Positions 41,161 to 48,654 of a stretch of DNA of 64,000 nt are shown one piece after another. A program made the position numbers and the translations under genes. Position 1 is the stretch's first letter, and the number at the start of each line of letters is the position of its first letter. A model generated the notes under the pieces. The model did not search any database. It was not told the origin of the DNA and was given only the letters and a program-made list of their open reading frames with translations. The stretch is from Sporomusa sp. KB1 (GTDB lineage: Bacteria; Bacillota; Negativicutes; Sporomusales; Sporomusaceae), in NCBI RefSeq assembly GCF_007830295.1, contig NZ_VLKC01000002.1:2141776-2205775 (forward strand). Reading direction: 5' to 3'.

Positions 41161-41209
41161 TCCAGATGAAAAGGTTAAATCTTTATCAGCGGTGAGAGGA
41201 GATGGCCTA

Positions 41210-42013
41210 ATGTATCGGGCGTTAAAATATATCGGTCCGGTTGGGCTGGGAGCTACATCTCCACAACTATTTCGCGCCGAAAATGACTGTGGAGAAGTAA
41301 AGGTATGTGTTGTTAAGTTATCATCCAATCGTCTTGGGTCCAAGGTTCTCGTAAACGAGTTGCTAGCTGCTCATTTTGGCGATTGGCTGAAGCTTTGCTT
41401 TCCACCAGGGGGACTTATTGACATTTCTCCGAAGGTATTGGCTAGTAGCCGGCGTTTGACTGCTGCCGCCGTACTGCCGGGTTGGCACTTTGGGTGTGAG
41501 TATTTACAAGGAGTTGGCTATGTAAACAAATACAATCTGCATCAGGCAGTAAATAAAGAGCAAATGGCTGGCGTTATGCTGTTTGACCACTTGTTCCATA
41601 ATCCTGACCGGACGGAAAATAGAAAAAATCTGCTAATTCGCAAAGAACGGGATGGCTATAAGCTGTATGCGATTGATAATTCACATTTGTTTCGTCGTGG
41701 CAAATGGACAACTGGTATGCTGGAAGAGTTAGTTGATACGATTACGGTAAATCATCGCCGTTCCTATGGTGTGCTTTTGAAATATTATCTACGGCCAGCG
41801 CAATTATTCAAGTATGCTGCAGCCGTTAAGAATATTGAGGATGCGAAATTTGCTCAGTTTATGGATAGTATTCCTGAGGAGTGGCTGCCTGATAAGGCGG
41901 AGCGGCAGGCTTTGCTTGAATTTCTTGTTAGCAGGCGTGACAAAGCCTGCTGGGTAGCAGAACAATTAAGCCAGCTAATCCCGAATATACATCGGGGTAC
42001 CGATATTTATTAA
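41210..42013 (+). CDS. HipA-like kinase domain protein
   Basis: A 267-aa member of the HipA-like kinase group (HipA_2 type). The catalytic-loop region FDHLFHNPDRTENRKNLLIRK and the metal-binding YAIDNSHLF are visible; an N-terminal GLGATSPQLFRAENDCGEVKVCVVKL could bind nucleotide. No HipB-like antitoxin lies beside it, so a toxin-antitoxin role is not supported. ATG 41210 follows GAGAGGAGAT. Its last 39 bp overlap, on the opposite strand, the 3' end of the split L,D-transpeptidase gene. Confidence 0.75.
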   Translation: MYRALKYIGPVGLGATSPQLFRAENDCGEVKVCVVKLSSNRLGSKVLVNELLAAHFGDWLKLCFPPGGLIDISPKVLASSRRLTAAAVLPGWHFGCEYLQGVGYVNKYNLHQAVNKEQMAGVMLFDHLFHNPDRTENRKNLLIRKERDGYKLYAIDNSHLFRRGKWTTGMLEELVDTITVNHRRSYGVLLKYYLRPAQLFKYAAAVKNIEDAKFAQFMDSIPEEWLPDKAERQALLEFLVSRRDKACWVAEQLSQLIPNIHRGTDIY

Positions 42014-42094
42014 GGTAAATATCTCTTCAGCATGCGCGTTATGCATCCGGATACAGCCGTTAGATACCATTTGACCAATTAGCCAGGGGGCATT
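41975..42094 (-). CDS. L,D-transpeptidase, C-terminal half (gene interrupted)
   Basis: Reading leftward from the AAT codon at 42094-42092, the frame gives NAPWLIGQMVSNGCIRMHNA and on to GTPMYIRD. This is the end of a YkuD domain with the catalytic Cys in SNGCIRM. It has no start codon of its own belonging to the family; the upstream continuation is element sequence. The missing half lies at 44614-44988 on the same strand, 2.5 kb upstream, beyond the recombinase element. The active-site His is in that other half, so this fragment alone cannot work. Confidence 0.88.
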   Translation of the reverse strand, partial: NAPWLIGQMVSNGCIRMHNAHAEEIFTLINIGTPMYIRD

Positions 42095-42122
42095 GATGCT
42101 TTGAGCAAATAAGCATGACAAA

Positions 42123-43637
42123 TTATATCGTTTCCCACGTAATTTTAAACACTGGCGGCTTTTTGACACTTGGTTTGTCAGTTCTTACTACGGTAACTTT
42201 TGTAAGCACAGCTCTGATAATGGATTTCTTTTCATCAGGCGTAAGATCGCCTTGCTCAATCAAGGGTCGTAGTTGAGCGGCGACTTCCGCGAAACTTAAT
42301 TTTGCTGCAACAGGTGCTTCGAGAGGTTTCAGTACATTTCTTCTTTCTTCGATATCAATTAATTGTGCTCGTATTTGGTCCAGCTCTTCCTCGGCATCTT
42401 TTTCAGATAGCTTTTGCTGCCTAAACCACTTAGTAATCGTTTCACGGCGCTTTACAAGTTCAGACTCCATTTGATTGAGTCTTTTGGTCTCTACCTTGTT
42501 GTTGGCAACCGGCTTTGGTTTCGGTATGAACTTTTTAGCCTTCTCATGGTTTTTTAATGCCTCTGCCAGCTTAGACCATAGAACGGCATCTAAAGCCTCA
42601 GCAGGAAGGCTCCTGCTGGCACATTTGAGGCCTGCATTGCGAAGATCGCTGTATCTTTGTGTAGCGCACTGGTAGTAAGGCTTATAACTGCCATCTCTGA
42701 ACGCACAATGATGGGCTAGCATACGGCGGCCACAAACACCACAATACATTATTCCGGCAAAAAGATAGGGATGGATAAACGGTCTTTTTGTGGTTGCTTT
42801 GTTTTGCTTCAGCTGATGCTGTACGCGTTCAAAAGTCATCTCGTCGACAATAGCTGGCACAGGAATAGAAATCCATTCATCTTTTGGGCGTTCCATTGTC
42901 TTGCGTGTATCTATCCCGGTTTTCTGTTGCCGGTTCTTCATACTGTGAAAGGTGCCCGTGTATGTCCTATTAGTCAATAGGTTATGAAGCGAAGAGGTTG
43001 GCCAGAGTGCTTTGCCGGTAGGCGATAAAACAACTCTTTTCTTTAGTTCTTTTTGTACGCGTTCAATGCTCATCTGATCATCTATGACAAGTCGATAGAT
43101 TTCACGGACAACAGCAGCCTGCGTCTCATTAATGGTATAGGTGCAATTAGCTTGATCGTAACTATAACCAAACAATCCAAAATCCTGGATGATTTTACCC
43201 TGGGACGATTTTTTCTTTTTGCCGCGTAGTGTCCGGTCAAGTATCTTAGCTTTTTCAAATTCCGCTATGGCGCCACGCATAGAGAAAAACAACCTTCCTT
43301 CCGGACTGGCATCATAGTTCCCGGTAATGAACCGCAATTCGACCTTTGCTTTTTCCATCTCTTCCGCTACTAGTAGTTGAATAGATAGTTTACGGGCTAG
43401 TCGATCAGGATCATACACGACAACCGTTTCAATTCTCCCGGCAGCAATATCGTCGCGGAGACTAGTTAAGGCCGGACGGTCGATAAATTCGCCGCTATAG
43501 CCCTCGTCTACATACTCTACTATGTTTGTTTTACCCTGTTTAAATAATAATGCTTTGCATGATGCTATTTGGTCAGGGAGGGAATAGCCGGTTTTCGCTT
43601 GTTCTTCTGTACTGACGCGAGCATAAATTGCGTTCAT
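42123..43637 (-). CDS. Serine recombinase, SpoIVCA/CisA-like
   Basis: A 504-aa large serine recombinase. The resolvase domain starts MNAIYARVSTEEQAKTGYSL with catalytic Ser9, and has VVVYDPDRLARKL and SPEGRLFFSMRGAIAEFEKAKI. The recombinase domain (about 150-270) and a zinc ribbon (CGVCGRRM ... C) follow, then a coiled coil (about 390-445). From memory, wording and length closely follow B. subtilis SpoIVCA (500 aa), which excises the skin element. Its stop lies 28 bp inside the attachment junction. Its only visible upstream signal is an AGGAG at a long distance from the ATG, and a CATATAGATA box at 43666-43657, loosely like a mother-cell sigma -10. Confidence 0.93.
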   Translation of the reverse strand: MNAIYARVSTEEQAKTGYSLPDQIASCKALLFKQGKTNIVEYVDEGYSGEFIDRPALTSLRDDIAAGRIETVVVYDPDRLARKLSIQLLVAEEMEKAKVELRFITGNYDASPEGRLFFSMRGAIAEFEKAKILDRTLRGKKKKSSQGKIIQDFGLFGYSYDQANCTYTINETQAAVVREIYRLVIDDQMSIERVQKELKKRVVLSPTGKALWPTSSLHNLLTNRTYTGTFHSMKNRQQKTGIDTRKTMERPKDEWISIPVPAIVDEMTFERVQHQLKQNKATTKRPFIHPYLFAGIMYCGVCGRRMLAHHCAFRDGSYKPYYQCATQRYSDLRNAGLKCASRSLPAEALDAVLWSKLAEALKNHEKAKKFIPKPKPVANNKVETKRLNQMESELVKRRETITKWFRQQKLSEKDAEEELDQIRAQLIDIEERRNVLKPLEAPVAAKLSFAEVAAQLRPLIEQGDLTPDEKKSIIRAVLTKVTVVRTDKPSVKKPPVFKITWETI

Positions 43638-43720
43638 TTTGTTATTTCACACTCCTTATCTATATGATTTTATGCAAGAGTACAACCAGTAACCGCATAT
43701 GTTTTACCGGGGGTGGTGAC

Positions 43721-43885
43721 ATGATTGGTGTGATTGATGAGGAAAACTCTAGTTTTCCTGTAACCGAAGCAGCCCAGGAAGCCTTTGAAGCAGCAATGGC
43801 AAAAATTATTATGGCTAGGTGGGAAGCTATGTCAGTAGAGGAGCAAGCTAAGATAATTAAGCCAAGTAAATCCGGTAAGTCCTAA
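43721..43885 (+). CDS. Small acidic protein inside the recombinase element
   Basis: A 54-aa ORF, divergent from the recombinase, starting MIGVIDEENSSFPVTEAAQE and ending KPSKSGKS. GGGGGTGGTGAC sits directly before ATG 43721. No family recognised. By size and position it could be a recombination directionality factor (SprB of SP-beta is of similar size), but nothing in the sequence proves that. Confidence 0.55.
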   Translation: MIGVIDEENSSFPVTEAAQEAFEAAMAKIIMARWEAMSVEEQAKIIKPSKSGKS

Positions 43886-43899
43886 GACAGAGGGAAAAA

Positions 43900-43932
43900 C
43901 TATAAAAAAATAAAAAGCCGCGCAGCGGCAAA
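43900..43932 (-). terminator. Terminator between the convergent small ORFs
   Basis: On the minus strand a GCCGC/GCGGC stem is followed by TTTTTATTTTTTT. It ends the 48-aa ORF and may also affect the opposite transcript. Confidence 0.7.
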
Positions 43933-43933
43933 A

Positions 43934-44080
43934 TCAAGTTGTTTTATCCATTTGCTTAATTACGTTAAATACCTGCTGATAAAGATTTGTTATCGATGTT
44001 GCACTAGGCATTAATTGTGTATTACTTGCAGCTGCTGCAACAATTTGAGCAGTTAATGTAGCAATCTGTTGATTATCCAT
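43934..44080 (-). CDS. Small helical protein inside the recombinase element
   Basis: A 48-aa ORF with a strong GGGAGG 8 bases before ATG. It starts MDNQQIATLTAQIVAAAASN and ends VFNVIKQMDKTT. The Ala-rich amphipathic sequence suggests one helix. Family and role are unknown; with the two other small ORFs it forms the element's only cargo besides the recombinase. Confidence 0.55.
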   Translation of the reverse strand: MDNQQIATLTAQIVAAAASNTQLMPSATSITNLYQQVFNVIKQMDKTT

Positions 44081-44267
44081 CTATTAATCCTCCCTAAAAC
44101 TGATTCCTAATTGATTCATTATACGAGTAATGCTTTAAGGATATGCACCAATTTGTAGCAAGCGGTAATCAATCCTAATAGGACTTTTGACCTGTAAAGT
44201 TAGTAAATTTGTCTTAAGGAAGTATAGTAAAGGATGTCGAAATAGATATAAAAATAATAATAGGGTG

Positions 44268-44486
44268 ATGGAAATGGGTGCAATGATCGAGGAAATTGAT
44301 TCTTTGAAGAAGCAAATGGTTGGCTTAGGATATGTAGAGGGAGAGGTAAACGCGTTTATACATGATGCTATAGGAGACAAGCCGATATCTAAGCTTAGCA
44401 ATCAAGAGTATAAAGATTTGATTGACTACTTGAACAGCTATCTATTGTTTGCGAAAAAAAGCAAAGGATTAGTATCGAGTCATTAA
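44268..44486 (+). CDS. Small protein inside the recombinase element
   Basis: A 72-aa ORF: MEMGAMIEEIDSLKKQMVGLG, a central EGEVNAFIHDAIGDKPISKLSNQEYKDLIDYLNSYLLF and a basic end. It is predicted helical and has no recognised domain. The start could be ATG 44268 or 44274; the Shine-Dalgarno is modest. Its own terminator follows at 44489. Candidate accessory factor for excision, on position alone. Confidence 0.5.
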   Translation: MEMGAMIEEIDSLKKQMVGLGYVEGEVNAFIHDAIGDKPISKLSNQEYKDLIDYLNSYLLFAKKSKGLVSSH

Positions 44487-44488
44487 TT

Positions 44489-44508
44489 GAGCCTGCGGGC
44501 TCTTTTTT
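44489..44508 (+). terminator. Terminator
   Basis: GAGCC/GGCTC stem with a 4-nt loop and six T, right after the 72-aa ORF. Confidence 0.82.
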
Positions 44509-44613
44509 CATGTTCCCCAATAAGTATTCTAACGGTGTTAGCTCTGGAGATAATATAGTTTCTAAACGTTTATACATATATAGGAAGTCTTAATTTCTGT
44601 CATGTTTTTTTTA

Positions 44614-44988
44614 TCAATGTGTGTTTGTGCCATGAAGGCCATAGGCATCATAATTGAGGCCCATCCAGCGTGTGCCGAGCACTCCGCCTGGGTTGGTAAT
44701 TTTCGTGGCAATGGCAAAATTGCCGGTAGGCGTTGGGGTTGATGGTTTGCCGATGGCAACTGGGTATTGACGGACTGGGTTATTACCATCAAATAAGGTT
44801 ATTTGGCGCTGGGATTTAACCAGCAAAATATTAGCTCTGGGCAATATGTGGCTAGCTCTGATAGGGGAGATTGGTATTACTTCCTCAGTGGTGGCAGTCA
44901 GGTTTTGACAGTAGGAGATATAACTTTCGCCTGCTGCCAGCGTAATGTTTTTTAAAGATTCGGGCAAATAAATCTTTCTAATATTCAA
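44614..44988 (-). CDS. L,D-transpeptidase, N-terminal half (gene interrupted)
   Basis: Reads leftward from TTG 44988 (GGAGG 9 bases upstream). The conserved first part of a YkuD catalytic domain is visible: ANILLVKSQRQITLFDGNN, YPVAIGKPSTPTPTGNFAIATK and RWMGLNYDAYGLHGTN with the catalytic His. Then come two foreign codons and a stop (TGA 44616-44614). There is no signal peptide, as in B. subtilis YkuD. Joined to the half at 41975-42094 it gives a 160-aa enzyme, close to YkuD (164 aa). Such enzymes make 3-3 peptidoglycan cross-links or modify spore cortex. It diverges from cphB. Confidence 0.88.
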   Translation of the reverse strand: MNIRKIYLPESLKNITLAAGESYISYCQNLTATTEEVIPISPIRASHILPRANILLVKSQRQITLFDGNNPVRQYPVAIGKPSTPTPTGNFAIATKITNPGGVLGTRWMGLNYDAYGLHGTNTH

Positions 44989-45132
44989 TATGCTTCGACC
45001 TCCGTTTGCTCCCGTTTTTCTGCTTCATTATATTCAATACCAGTCAATTCGGTTAATAAAAACCTATTGAATAAATTTTATACAATTTTGGTAAAAATAG
45101 GAGCATAAGATAAATAGGAGAATTATGTTAGG

Positions 45133-45969
45133 ATGAATGACACAATAACAGCAAATAAAGACAAACCGTGCGGTAGTTTACTTATCATTGGCGGTCATGA
45201 AGATAAAGTAGGCGAGTGCTTGATCTTGCGTCAGTTTATAGATATGGCTGGCGGCAAAAATAGCCAGATTGTAGTGATTGCTACTGCCACCGGCCAGCCC
45301 CGCCTTGTGGGTAATGAATACCGGCAACTATTTTCTTCTCTCGGAGTGGCGGCAGTCACCATTATGGCTGTTGCCGACCGGGAGGCGGCAAACCAACAGG
45401 AACAGGCTGAGATTATAAAGCAGGCCACCGGCATATTTTTCACAGGCGGCGACCAACTGCGTTTTACCAGTATTCTTGGAGGGTCAGCCGTTGACGCTGC
45501 CATTCGGGCTGCTTTCAGGCAAGGAGCTGTCATTGCCGGGACAAGTGCAGGGGCAGCTGTTATGAGTGAGACCATGATTGTAGCCGGTAACTCCAATGAT
45601 ACGCCTAAAAAGTCTTCCCTAATCATGGCTCAGGGCATGGGGTTTTTAGCAGAGGGGGTAGTTGATCAGCATTTTGCCCAACGTGGACGTATTAACCGTT
45701 TGCTAGAAGCAGTCGCCCAAAATCCGCATGTTTTGGGAATCGGCATTGACGAAGATACAGCCCTTGTTGTTGGACCCGACCGGCTTTGTCAGGTAATTGG
45801 CTCACAGACGGTGACCATTATTGACGGTAAGAGTATTATCTATTCCAACATTTCTGAGTCCAATCGCTATCAGCCATTAGCCATATCTAATGTACTATTA
45901 CACATTTTGCCTGCAGGATTTGGTTTTGATTTAAATCTAAGGCTGCCATTGCAGCTTGCTACTAACTAG
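45133..45969 (+). CDS. cphB: Cyanophycinase
   Basis: A 278-aa serine peptidase of family S51 that cuts cyanophycin into beta-Asp-Arg dipeptides. Motifs: LLIIGGHEDK, FFTGGDQLRFTSIL, the nucleophile elbow AGTSAGAAVMSETMI (Ser about 138), VVDQHFAQRGRINRL and GIGIDEDTALVV. ATG 45133 is about 12 bases after AGGAG; spacing is long, but the alternative ATG nearby is out of frame. It is followed 18 bp later by cphA, a degradation-synthesis pair. Confidence 0.93.
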   Translation: MNDTITANKDKPCGSLLIIGGHEDKVGECLILRQFIDMAGGKNSQIVVIATATGQPRLVGNEYRQLFSSLGVAAVTIMAVADREAANQQEQAEIIKQATGIFFTGGDQLRFTSILGGSAVDAAIRAAFRQGAVIAGTSAGAAVMSETMIVAGNSNDTPKKSSLIMAQGMGFLAEGVVDQHFAQRGRINRLLEAVAQNPHVLGIGIDEDTALVVGPDRLCQVIGSQTVTIIDGKSIIYSNISESNRYQPLAISNVLLHILPAGFGFDLNLRLPLQLATN

Positions 45970-45987
45970 CTAAAGGAGGATTGCAAC

Positions 45988-48654
45988 ATGAAATTATTAT
46001 CTACACGCTTTATTGCCGGACCTAACATCTACAGTTATCGCCCGGTTATTAAAGCGACTATTGATATTGGCAGCTATGAAGATATAGACAGCAGTGGAAT
46101 GGTTGATTTTGTCGTGTGCTTATTAGCATTACTGCCAGGACTACACAAGCATAGCTGTTCACGGGGTTATCCTGGCGGTTTTGTAGAACGTTTGCACGAG
46201 GGAACGTATCTGGCACACATTTTTGAGCACGTAGCGCTTGAACTACAGTCGCTGAGCGGTGACGAATATGCCTCTGCTTTTGGCAAGACCCGCGGGTCGG
46301 GGCGTCGGGGCATTTATCAGGTTGTATTTGGTTGTAAATCAGGTCAGGTAGGGCTAGCTGCCGCTGACGGTGCCTACCGTTTGCTTGTGGCGGTGCTTAA
46401 TGGACAAGCTTTTAATGTGCCAGAGGCAGTCGCGAAGCTAAAGAAAATGGGAGAAGAGGGCAGATTGGGACCAAGTACAGCAGCTATTTATGAAGCGGCG
46501 CGACGGCGGGGTATTCCTGTTTTGCGTCCGGATTATGAAGTTAATTTTCTTATTCTCGGCTATGGCAATAAGCAACAGCGGGTTTGGGCTAGTATTACTG
46601 GACAAACAAGTTCCTTGGCTGTTGAGTTGGTGGGAGATAAATTCCTTACCAATACGTTGTTGCGGCAAAATGCTGTGCCTGTACCGGAGGGATATGTTGT
46701 TACAAGCTTGGCAGAGGCTGTCGCTGCTCTTGATAGGATCGGTGCGCCGGTTGTTATTAAACCTGTCAATGGTAACCACGGAAACGGGGTTACGCTAAAT
46801 ATTTGGAATAAAGCCGAGGCGGAACGGGCCTATCAATTGGCTGCCGAGTATGATGAGCGGGTGTTGGTAGAAGAATATGTAGCAGGCCGCCAGTATCGAT
46901 TGTGTGTTGTTAATGGTAAACTGGCGGCAGGGGCTGAGCGGATACCGGCCCATGTTGTTGGCGACGGTATTCATTCAATTGCTGAACTGGTTGAATTGGT
47001 TAATCTAGATCCGGCTCGTGGCAGTGGTCACAGTCGCCCGCTAACCTGTTTGCAAATAGATGCCGCGGCCATTATGACCCTGTCCCGGCAAAACCTATCA
47101 GCAGCGTCTATCCCAGCTGCCGGACAGCTGGTCGATATCCGTGACAATGCGAATCTGAGTACTGGTGCAACAGCCAAAGACGTAACTGCCAGTATTCACC
47201 CGGACATCATCCGGCTGGTGGAGCGGGCAGTGCGGCTTACTGGTCTGGATGTGGCAGGGGTTGACCTGGTTATGCCTGATATTTGTCGGCCGCTGGCTGC
47301 CGGGCAAGGGGCCATTATCGAAATTAATGCTGCGCCTGGCCTTAGAATGCATTTGTATCCAAGTTCGGGGATACCCCGTGATTTAGGCGCAGTCATTGTT
47401 GATTATCTATTTCCTAATGGGGCCGATGGCCGGATACCGATAATTGCCGTCACTGGCACAAATGGCAAAACCACGGTTACTAGGCTTATTGGTCATATCT
47501 TTCGGCAAGCTGGCTATAAAACAGGCATGACCACCTCTAGCGGCATCTATGTGGATCAGGAGTGTATTATGCAAGGTGACACAACTGGTCCAGCCAGTAC
47601 GGCCATGATATTGTCTGATCCTGCGGTAGAAGTGGCTGTATTGGAAGTCGCTCGCGGTGGTATCATCCGAGGTGGATTGGGCTATGATTTTGCTGATGTC
47701 GGCATAATTACGAATATTACCGAAGATCATATTGGGCAGGATGGTATTGAGGATCTTGAGGATTTGGCCTATATTAAGTCTTTGGTTATTGAACGCGTGC
47801 GGCCAGATGGTGTTGTGCTTTTAAATGCAGATGATAGCCGGGTGGCAGATCTCAAGGTACGGACAAAGAGTGAAATTATTTATTTTAGTACCCAGCCTGA
47901 CAATATTATTGTTCGTCGCCATCTCGGTGAAGGGGGCCGGGCCTGTTTTGTCAAAAATGATGCCATTTATCTGGCAGCGGGAAAAAAAGAGCAAGTTCTG
48001 ATTACAATTGTTAATGTCCCCCTTACCTTGCAGGGGTTTGCCTATCATAATATTCAAAACACTGTAATTGCCGTTGCGGCTTGTTGGTCGCAGAAGCTAT
48101 CCTTAGAGGCTATTCATAAAGGCGTGATCAGCTTTAACCAAAACCCGGGGAGACTTATGCTGATGGCGATGGCGGGTTTTCGGGTTTGCGTTGATTACGC
48201 TCACAATCCGGCTGGTTGTCAGGCGTTGGCAAGTACTTTAAGGCGCCTTAAGCCACGAAGATTGATTGGAGTTATTGCGGCACCTGGGGACCGGAGGGAT
48301 GATGTTATCATCAGCCTTGGCAGGGCTGCCGGCCAGGGATTTGACAGTATCTATATTAAGGAAGATTGTGATTTGCGGGGGCGGCAGCCGGGTGAGACAG
48401 CAGCCCTGCTGTTGCAAGGTGCTTTGGAAGCTGGGATGGCTGCTGCGCAGGTAACCACCATTTTTGATGAATGCGAGGCCGTGACTACTGCTTTGAACCA
48501 GGCCGTTGCAGACGATTTAATTGCCATTTTTTACGAAAACTATGATGTTGTCATGACGACGATAACCGGGTTTGAGCAGAGACAAAAATCCGGCTGCTTG
48601 TGTAGAACAGACCTCCCGAAATTAGTGGTCGCCGGAATGCGAATCAAAGGATAA
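45988..48654 (+). CDS. cphA: Cyanophycin synthetase
   Basis: An 888-aa ligase that builds multi-L-arginyl-poly-L-aspartate. Order: N-terminal domain (about 1-160, HSCSRGYPGGFVERLHEGTYLAHIFEHVALELQ), ATP-grasp domain (about 210-470, APVVIKPVNGNHGNGVTLNI, IIEINAAPGLRMH) and a Mur-ligase domain with P-loop VTGTNGKTTVTRLIGHI near residue 492 and VCVDYAHNPAGCQAL. Length matches the usual 870-900 aa. AAAGGAGG precedes ATG 45988. Cyanophycin stores nitrogen, carbon and energy; with cphB it forms a complete cycle. Confidence 0.96.
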   Translation: MKLLSTRFIAGPNIYSYRPVIKATIDIGSYEDIDSSGMVDFVVCLLALLPGLHKHSCSRGYPGGFVERLHEGTYLAHIFEHVALELQSLSGDEYASAFGKTRGSGRRGIYQVVFGCKSGQVGLAAADGAYRLLVAVLNGQAFNVPEAVAKLKKMGEEGRLGPSTAAIYEAARRRGIPVLRPDYEVNFLILGYGNKQQRVWASITGQTSSLAVELVGDKFLTNTLLRQNAVPVPEGYVVTSLAEAVAALDRIGAPVVIKPVNGNHGNGVTLNIWNKAEAERAYQLAAEYDERVLVEEYVAGRQYRLCVVNGKLAAGAERIPAHVVGDGIHSIAELVELVNLDPARGSGHSRPLTCLQIDAAAIMTLSRQNLSAASIPAAGQLVDIRDNANLSTGATAKDVTASIHPDIIRLVERAVRLTGLDVAGVDLVMPDICRPLAAGQGAIIEINAAPGLRMHLYPSSGIPRDLGAVIVDYLFPNGADGRIPIIAVTGTNGKTTVTRLIGHIFRQAGYKTGMTTSSGIYVDQECIMQGDTTGPASTAMILSDPAVEVAVLEVARGGIIRGGLGYDFADVGIITNITEDHIGQDGIEDLEDLAYIKSLVIERVRPDGVVLLNADDSRVADLKVRTKSEIIYFSTQPDNIIVRRHLGEGGRACFVKNDAIYLAAGKKEQVLITIVNVPLTLQGFAYHNIQNTVIAVAACWSQKLSLEAIHKGVISFNQNPGRLMLMAMAGFRVCVDYAHNPAGCQALASTLRRLKPRRLIGVIAAPGDRRDDVIISLGRAAGQGFDSIYIKEDCDLRGRQPGETAALLLQGALEAGMAAAQVTTIFDECEAVTTALNQAVADDLIAIFYENYDVVMTTITGFEQRQKSGCLCRTDLPKLVVAGMRIKG

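Follow-up and report, generated by a model that had tools for sequence, protein, structure and literature searches.

A gene that is cut in two by an element carrying its own recombinase may be broken or may be switched, and this question is raised by a 64,000-nucleotide stretch of the genome of Sporomusa sp. KB1 (assembly GCF_007830295.1, contig NZ_VLKC01000002.1, positions 2,141,776 to 2,205,775; hereafter, the window). Here, an L,D-transpeptidase (YkuD) gene on the minus strand, denoted LDT1, lies in two pieces around the gene for a 504-aa large serine recombinase. We consider it fairly likely that the intervening segment is a site-specific element that would be excised in the mother cell, restoring LDT1 during sporulation.

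The two pieces complement each other, with positions 5-107 of the Pfam YkuD profile covered by the N-terminal half and positions 108-146 by the C-terminal half, so that the joined halves form a complete domain with both the HGT and the SNGCIRM motifs, which we take to contain the catalytic His and Cys, respectively. The insertion point is the codon immediately after HGT, that is, the Asn codon of HGTN. Removal of the element, with the flanks joined at the shared AA, exactly restores the reading frame and yields a product of 160 residues that includes the sequence HGTNAPWLIG. The original prediction, made from the letters alone, had placed the two halves and the recombinase gene where Table 1 gives them, had read the halves as complementary parts of one domain about 2.53 kb apart, with three tiny open reading frames (ORFs) between them and the ribosome-binding site of the N-terminal half kept, and had proposed the AA join; all of this was reproduced, with an element of 2,531 bp and small ORFs of 48, 54 and 72 aa. 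Direct repeats linking both ends of the element were not detected among the repeat families listed (the best 20 of 36), as expected for a core of only 2 bp.

An empty version of the site exists in Sporomusa ovata DSM 2662 (G007), where LDT1 is uninterrupted. The S. ovata DNA matches both flanks of the window element, with each match ending at the same two bases; across the junction, 118 of 122 bases of the AA-joined flanks agree with S. ovata, and the predicted joined product is identical to the S. ovata protein at 151 of 160 residues, in agreement with the fusion that had been predicted. Across the join, the motif HG[TS]xxPW is kept in all 24 intact orthologues (28 loci tried), although these had been chosen by a similar motif, so that this count is not independent.

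The same site is used in other genomes. A search with an alignment of four recombinases detected a close recombinase (E ≤ 1e-160) in 7 of the 380 genomes of the class, which we take to be Negativicutes. LDT1 is split at the HGT motif in five of the seven, in four of these at exactly the same codon position, and both halves retain an open frame in all but one of the five. The element spans 2,531 bp in Sporomusa sp. KB1 (G000), 3,763 bp in S. silvacetica (G008), 4,929 bp in G038, more than 5 kb in G131, where the arrangement is spread over two contigs, and 43,493 bp in G021, where it is a prophage encoding terminase, head and tail proteins. In G129, a 43-kb prophage that encodes tail-sheath and baseplate proteins, and carries structural genes different from those of the G021 prophage, occupies the same HGTN codon of a paralogous L,D-transpeptidase gene. 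Finally, the 18.6-kb contig C148 of Pelosinus G128 encodes a recombinase of this clade followed by an intact palindromic attP (L237:12479-12532), along with a replication initiation protein and a DNA methyltransferase, and is apparently unintegrated; an exact terminal overlap of 21-200 bases, as proof of a circle, was not found in L237. Contig C96 of G016 (L212) has the insertion codon of LDT1 at its start, and a search for the C-terminal half at E ≤ 1e-8 was negative, which is suggestive of mixed integrated and excised forms; this case was left out of the insertion count. In G027 (C35:55905-60344, L114), the gene for a distant recombinase and an intact LDT1 are separated by about 2.6 kb.

The att sites follow a common rule. 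When the element ends are joined, the strongest palindrome is centred exactly at the predicted position, ranking first of 1,110 centres (all those up to 600 bp from the join in both directions) for every one of the three elements that were ranked, those of G000, G008 and G038; the joined ends of the G131 element are symmetric at 25 of 40 positions (unranked). In these four cases, the core coincides with positions one and two of the codon that follows HGT (AA, AA, AG and AG), and the arms TGTCATG and CATGACA (CATGATA in G038) are located 19 nt from the core on both sides. The pattern TGTCATG-N40-CATGACA occurs at a single place (represented by three overlapping loci, and spotted by eye before the search) in 2.15 Mb of partly overlapping loci, directly after the clade recombinase of G128. 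The G021 prophage lacks the TGTCATG arms and probably differs in its core as well: with the centre placed at AA, its arm symmetry is 6 of 40, and since both of its ends contain AATGCGCC, the core may be located a few bases further downstream. As judged from sequence, the recombinase of the element appears to be a site-specific enzyme accompanied by matching att sites that consist of a 2-bp core and palindromic arms.

The window recombinase combines Resolvase, Recombinase and zinc ribbon domains which, together with the 2-bp core and the palindromic arms, identify it as a large serine recombinase, and it is assigned to the PHROG 95 integrase family. The label 'SpoIVCA-type' used in the original prediction holds for the domain architecture only; the best NCBIfam match is XisF, at 128.9 bits, below the cut-off of 375. 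We identified 24 relatives on viral contigs, with 32-45% identity; among them, unannotated contigs reach 40% along most of the protein and are thus nearer than the closest annotated phage record (see below). PHROG, NCBIfam and Pfam gave no family for any of the small ORFs of the window element, and a tblastn search with the 48-aa ORF across the collected loci gave no match beyond the G000 and G008 elements. The G008 element contains an ORF for an 85-aa Cys/Pro-rich repeat protein with a coat-like look (L069:2624-2878), for which no counterpart was detected in the window element; L097 holds a relative at 38%. A further recombinase is common to G000 (C1:3917151-3918491), S. ovata and S. silvacetica (L213, L085, L086), near a gene that is presumably MntP-like, and no split gene was recognised there.

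A 61-row recombinase tree places the seven close enzymes in one clade with support of 100/100, within which it takes two or three changes to account for the LDT1-target label. The clade nearest to it, at a joint support of only 80/77, consists of recombinases encoded beside fragments of spoVK (16 rows so labelled, the label denoting a spoVK match in the locus). The recombinase lies between the spoVK halves in the seven loci that hold both (L078, L079, L080, L082, L120, L142 and L189). Among the 13 genomes checked, spoVK is divided into short frames near residue 217-221 in 10 and is whole in three (G000, G005 and G006; the SpoVK-like protein of G000 scores 421.9 vs the spoVK-model cut-off of 422.95), and the split with a related recombinase is found across several genera. 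As spoVK belongs to the sporulation genes (PMC517825; here and below, the statements on cited papers refer to portions of their text), this target would, by analogy only, back a role of the recombinase group in sporulation. The spoVK halves of S. ovata are about 291 kb apart in opposite orientations (C4:442904-443305, plus strand; C4:734657-735193, minus strand; L214), with a recombinase adjoining the C-terminal half, so that inversion, not excision, would rejoin them; those of S. silvacetica are on different contigs.

For LDT1 itself, the link to sporulation comes from its distribution and its upstream region. Of 160 genomes of the class, 53 have a match to LDT1 (E ≤ 1e-28) and 51 to spoIVA, with 50 genomes encoding both, three LDT1 only, one spoIVA only and 106 neither (Fisher p of about 1e-36, kinship ignored); the two counts were taken to cover the same 160 genomes since the listed genomes agree, the non-matching ones being mostly unlisted. 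The single genome with spoIVA alone is G021, in which the LDT1 copy is decayed. Promoters were sought with sigma consensus strings. Upstream of LDT1, a sigmaK-like site is present in 7 of the 16 genomes compared, against a mean of 1.1 and a maximum of 4 after shuffling, and includes an exact match in G038 at the place aligned with the window site; 15 of the same 16 have a sigmaF-like site in front of the divergent gene for the cyanophycinase-like protein (shuffle mean 0.6). A sigmaA promoter for LDT1 was rejected (0 of 16 genomes at ≤1 mismatch). Promoter spacing is given in PMC517825, where ykuD of Bacillus subtilis is counted among the sigmaK regulon, and an L,D-transpeptidase of Clostridioides difficile is listed in a table of apparent mother-cell genes (PMC3789822). 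Collectively, the co-occurrence with spoIVA and the promoter motifs indirectly suggest that LDT1 is a sporulation-linked gene. On the other side of LDT1's upstream region, cyanophycinase-like and cyanophycin synthetase-like genes are located beside two genes for SipL/SPOCS-domain proteins (window positions 45133-48654).

Table 1. Features at and around the split LDT1 gene, in window coordinates
Feature	Position	Strand	Remarks
HipA-like kinase gene	41192..42013	+	3' end overlaps 3' end of LDT1; neighbour also in G008, G038 and G131
LDT1, 3' part through stop codon	41975..42094	-	catalytic Cys motif SNGCIRM
attR 2-bp core AA	42093..42094	-	in AAT codon
Intervening element	42095..44625	-	2,531 bp including one AA core copy
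attP arm TGTCATG	42114..42120	-	19 nt to core
Large serine recombinase, 504 aa	42123..43637	-	Pfam Resolvase, Recombinase, Zn_ribbon_recom
54-aa ORF	43721..43885	+	also in G008 element, omega 0.14; ORF of G038 element 41% identical over 41 residues
48-aa ORF	43934..44080	-	strong ribosome-binding site; candidate (predicted) recombination directionality factor
sigmaE-like site upstream of 48-aa ORF	44118..44146	-	GCATATC-N14-CGTATAAT; 3 mismatches to consensus
72-aa ORF	44268..44486	+	counterpart in G008 element
attP arm CATGACA	44598..44604	-	19 nt to core
LDT1, 5' part	44614..44988	-	catalytic His motif HGT; TTG start, GGAGG ribosome-binding site
attL 2-bp core AA	44624..44625	-	in AAC codon
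sigmaK-like site upstream of LDT1	45026..45054	-	AACC-N16-AATATAATG; 2 mismatches, hand count
sigmaF-like site of divergent cyanophycinase-like gene	45069..45098	+	GAATA-N16-GGTAAAAAT
Peptidase S51 (cyanophycinase-like) gene	45133..45969	+	divergent neighbour of LDT1, likewise in G008, G038 and G131

Sixteen synonymous and 4 non-synonymous changes separate the LDT1 halves of G000 from those of G008, with a ratio of non-synonymous to synonymous rates (omega) of 0.072. The recombinase genes differ by 140.5 synonymous and 53.5 non-synonymous differences (omega 0.076), and the neighbour genes show omega values in the range of 0.08 to 0.13. The synonymous divergence (dS) of the recombinase is 0.61, at least about 4 times that of the flanks (0.07 to 0.16), compared to 0.07 for the 48-aa ORF. 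A single vertical insertion common to both Sporomusa species is therefore not supported, and the two elements look like mosaics passed between lineages rather than descendants of one old insertion.

We propose that a compact element used its own large serine recombinase to enter LDT1 at the codon that follows the catalytic HGT. During sporulation, the recombinase would act on attL and attR in the mother cell, probably assisted by a small element-encoded directionality factor, for which the 48-aa ORF is the best candidate; excision would release a 2.5-kb circle and restore the 160-aa transpeptidase, which would then function in the cross-linking of spore peptidoglycan or the coat, whereas the forespore would retain the element. 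The exact 2-bp core, the palindromic attP arms, the in-frame restoration, the intact halves and the reuse of the same site argue for such a skin-like reading. The exact restoration of the frame and the co-occurrence with spoIVA also bear out the original view of an excisable-looking element in a sporulation-linked gene. The capacity of the element for excision is well supported by these sequence features, and excision probably switches LDT1 on; excision itself and its timing in the mother cell we infer.

Several observations weigh against this proposal. With respect to regulation, no convincing sigmaE or sigmaK promoter was found for the recombinase gene; the sigmaE-like site of the 48-aa ORF is weak, the 4.1 kb scanned containing two more sites with 3 mismatches; and the sigmaK-like site of LDT1 in G000 has two mismatches and ties with a second such site in the same scan. 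The 48-aa ORF, with an omega of 0.83 on 8 changes between G000 and G008, shows no clear purifying selection. Constraint was measured for this one pair of genomes and, in the case of LDT1, may be partly older than the insertion; furthermore, the two Sporomusa elements have diverged more than their hosts, which does not fit one simple vertical insertion. LDT1 is present without a spoIVA match in three genomes (G055, G126 and G132), its loss is tolerated in G021, where the N-terminal half carries a frameshifting deletion, and it may be redundant in G000, given the other YkuD matches in that genome.

Under the strongest competing explanation, which we nevertheless regard as unlikely, phages and their remnants simply take the conserved DNA of the L,D-transpeptidase catalytic motif as attB, the choice of a sporulation gene being harmless, with only occasional excision and LDT1 off in the carriers. 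The two 43-kb prophages with different structural genes, the element in a paralogous L,D-transpeptidase gene, the decayed LDT1 of G021 and the apparently mobile, non-vertical history of the elements are all compatible with plain integration of this kind. It sits less easily with the frames of both LDT1 halves, which are open in all but one of the five cases (with constraint estimated from G000 and G008 only), with the retention in the window element of the recombinase and of three small ORFs that match no phage family (the other small elements were checked in part), and with the extension of the spoVK clade over several genera.

That the element is a dead remnant with an inactive recombinase, and LDT1 a two-piece pseudogene, is highly improbable: the tiny size of the element, which has no recognisable phage gene besides the recombinase, and the six YkuD matches other than LDT1 in G000 (6.06 Mb, two contigs) could be read this way, but the low omega values of both the recombinase and LDT1, and the intact att cores and arms, speak against it. 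An assembly artefact or a chance resemblance, for which no supporting point was found, has a negligible probability given the same arrangement in S. silvacetica and three further assemblies (over two contigs in G131) and the exact empty site in S. ovata.

Beyond the excision of the window element, we put forward more tentatively, as a possibility, that the serine recombinases of spore-forming Negativicutes include a family that acts in development and has colonised spore-assembly genes time and again. In one clade, carried by various phages as well as by remnants of 2.5-5 kb that are retained solely as switches, the attB would be formed by the codons at the catalytic site of L,D-transpeptidases, and the clade nearest to it would likewise use spoVK; LDT1 activity, and with it late cross-linking of the spore wall, would be gated by excision. 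Part of the insertion pattern reflects the att-site choice of phages because two of the relatives are ordinary-looking prophages.

The split targets described previously are sigK, spsM, spoVFB, spoVR, gerE and yabG. Like the LDT1 element, skin in sigK (with SpoIVCA in B. subtilis, and CD1231 and CD1234 in C. difficile) combines its own serine recombinase with a split sporulation gene and expected in-frame restoration, but its target encodes a sigma factor rather than an enzyme. The C. difficile skin includes 19 genes and relies on a 72-aa, sigmaE-controlled directionality factor (PMC5025042), compared to 2.5 kb and four noted ORFs in the LDT1 element, the excision of which is predicted. The vfbin (spoVFB), vrin (spoVR) and SPbeta (spsM) elements also split mother-cell sporulation genes but occupy other hosts and targets and, unlike the LDT1 element, are reported to have phage-related genes on board (PMC4191935). 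The gin element in gerE of Bacillus cereus is similarly non-phage and encodes a serine recombinase but is larger (28.6 kb, 31 genes, three recombinases; PMC5595907). The yin element of Clostridium botulinum sits in a sporulation gene as well, yabG, and was not found in any other genome in its report (PMC10747680), whereas the LDT1 site is used in five genomes. By recombinase (tblastn, 34.5% identity), the closest annotated phage record is Alicyclobacillus phage MMB025, the prophage form of which is found in sigK, a sporulation gene; unlike the LDT1 element, this is a 105-kb infectious phage with a different target gene, and it has three integrases, the sigK integration not being tied to one of them (PMC13141910). 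No L,D-transpeptidase, ykuD or spoVK appeared as an element target among the matches listed in a literature search covering few subscription papers, and word searches in the available portions of PMC5595907 and PMC10747680, and for spoVK alone in that of PMC4191935, returned no mention of such a target. The LDT1 element would thus join the skin, vfbin, vrin, gin and yin kind with a new target gene, on the premise of excision in the mother cell.

If the proposal is correct, a peptidoglycan cross-linking enzyme would be added to the genes activated by DNA excision in sporulation, and this mode of switching would extend to Negativicutes. The 2.5-kb element would provide a very small system for the discovery of directionality factors, with an attP rule that is directly testable in vitro. 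The catalytic codons of one enzyme serving as a recurrent attB for elements of 2.5 to 43 kb would, in addition, offer a naturally occurring gradation between phage and minimal switch for tests of domestication.

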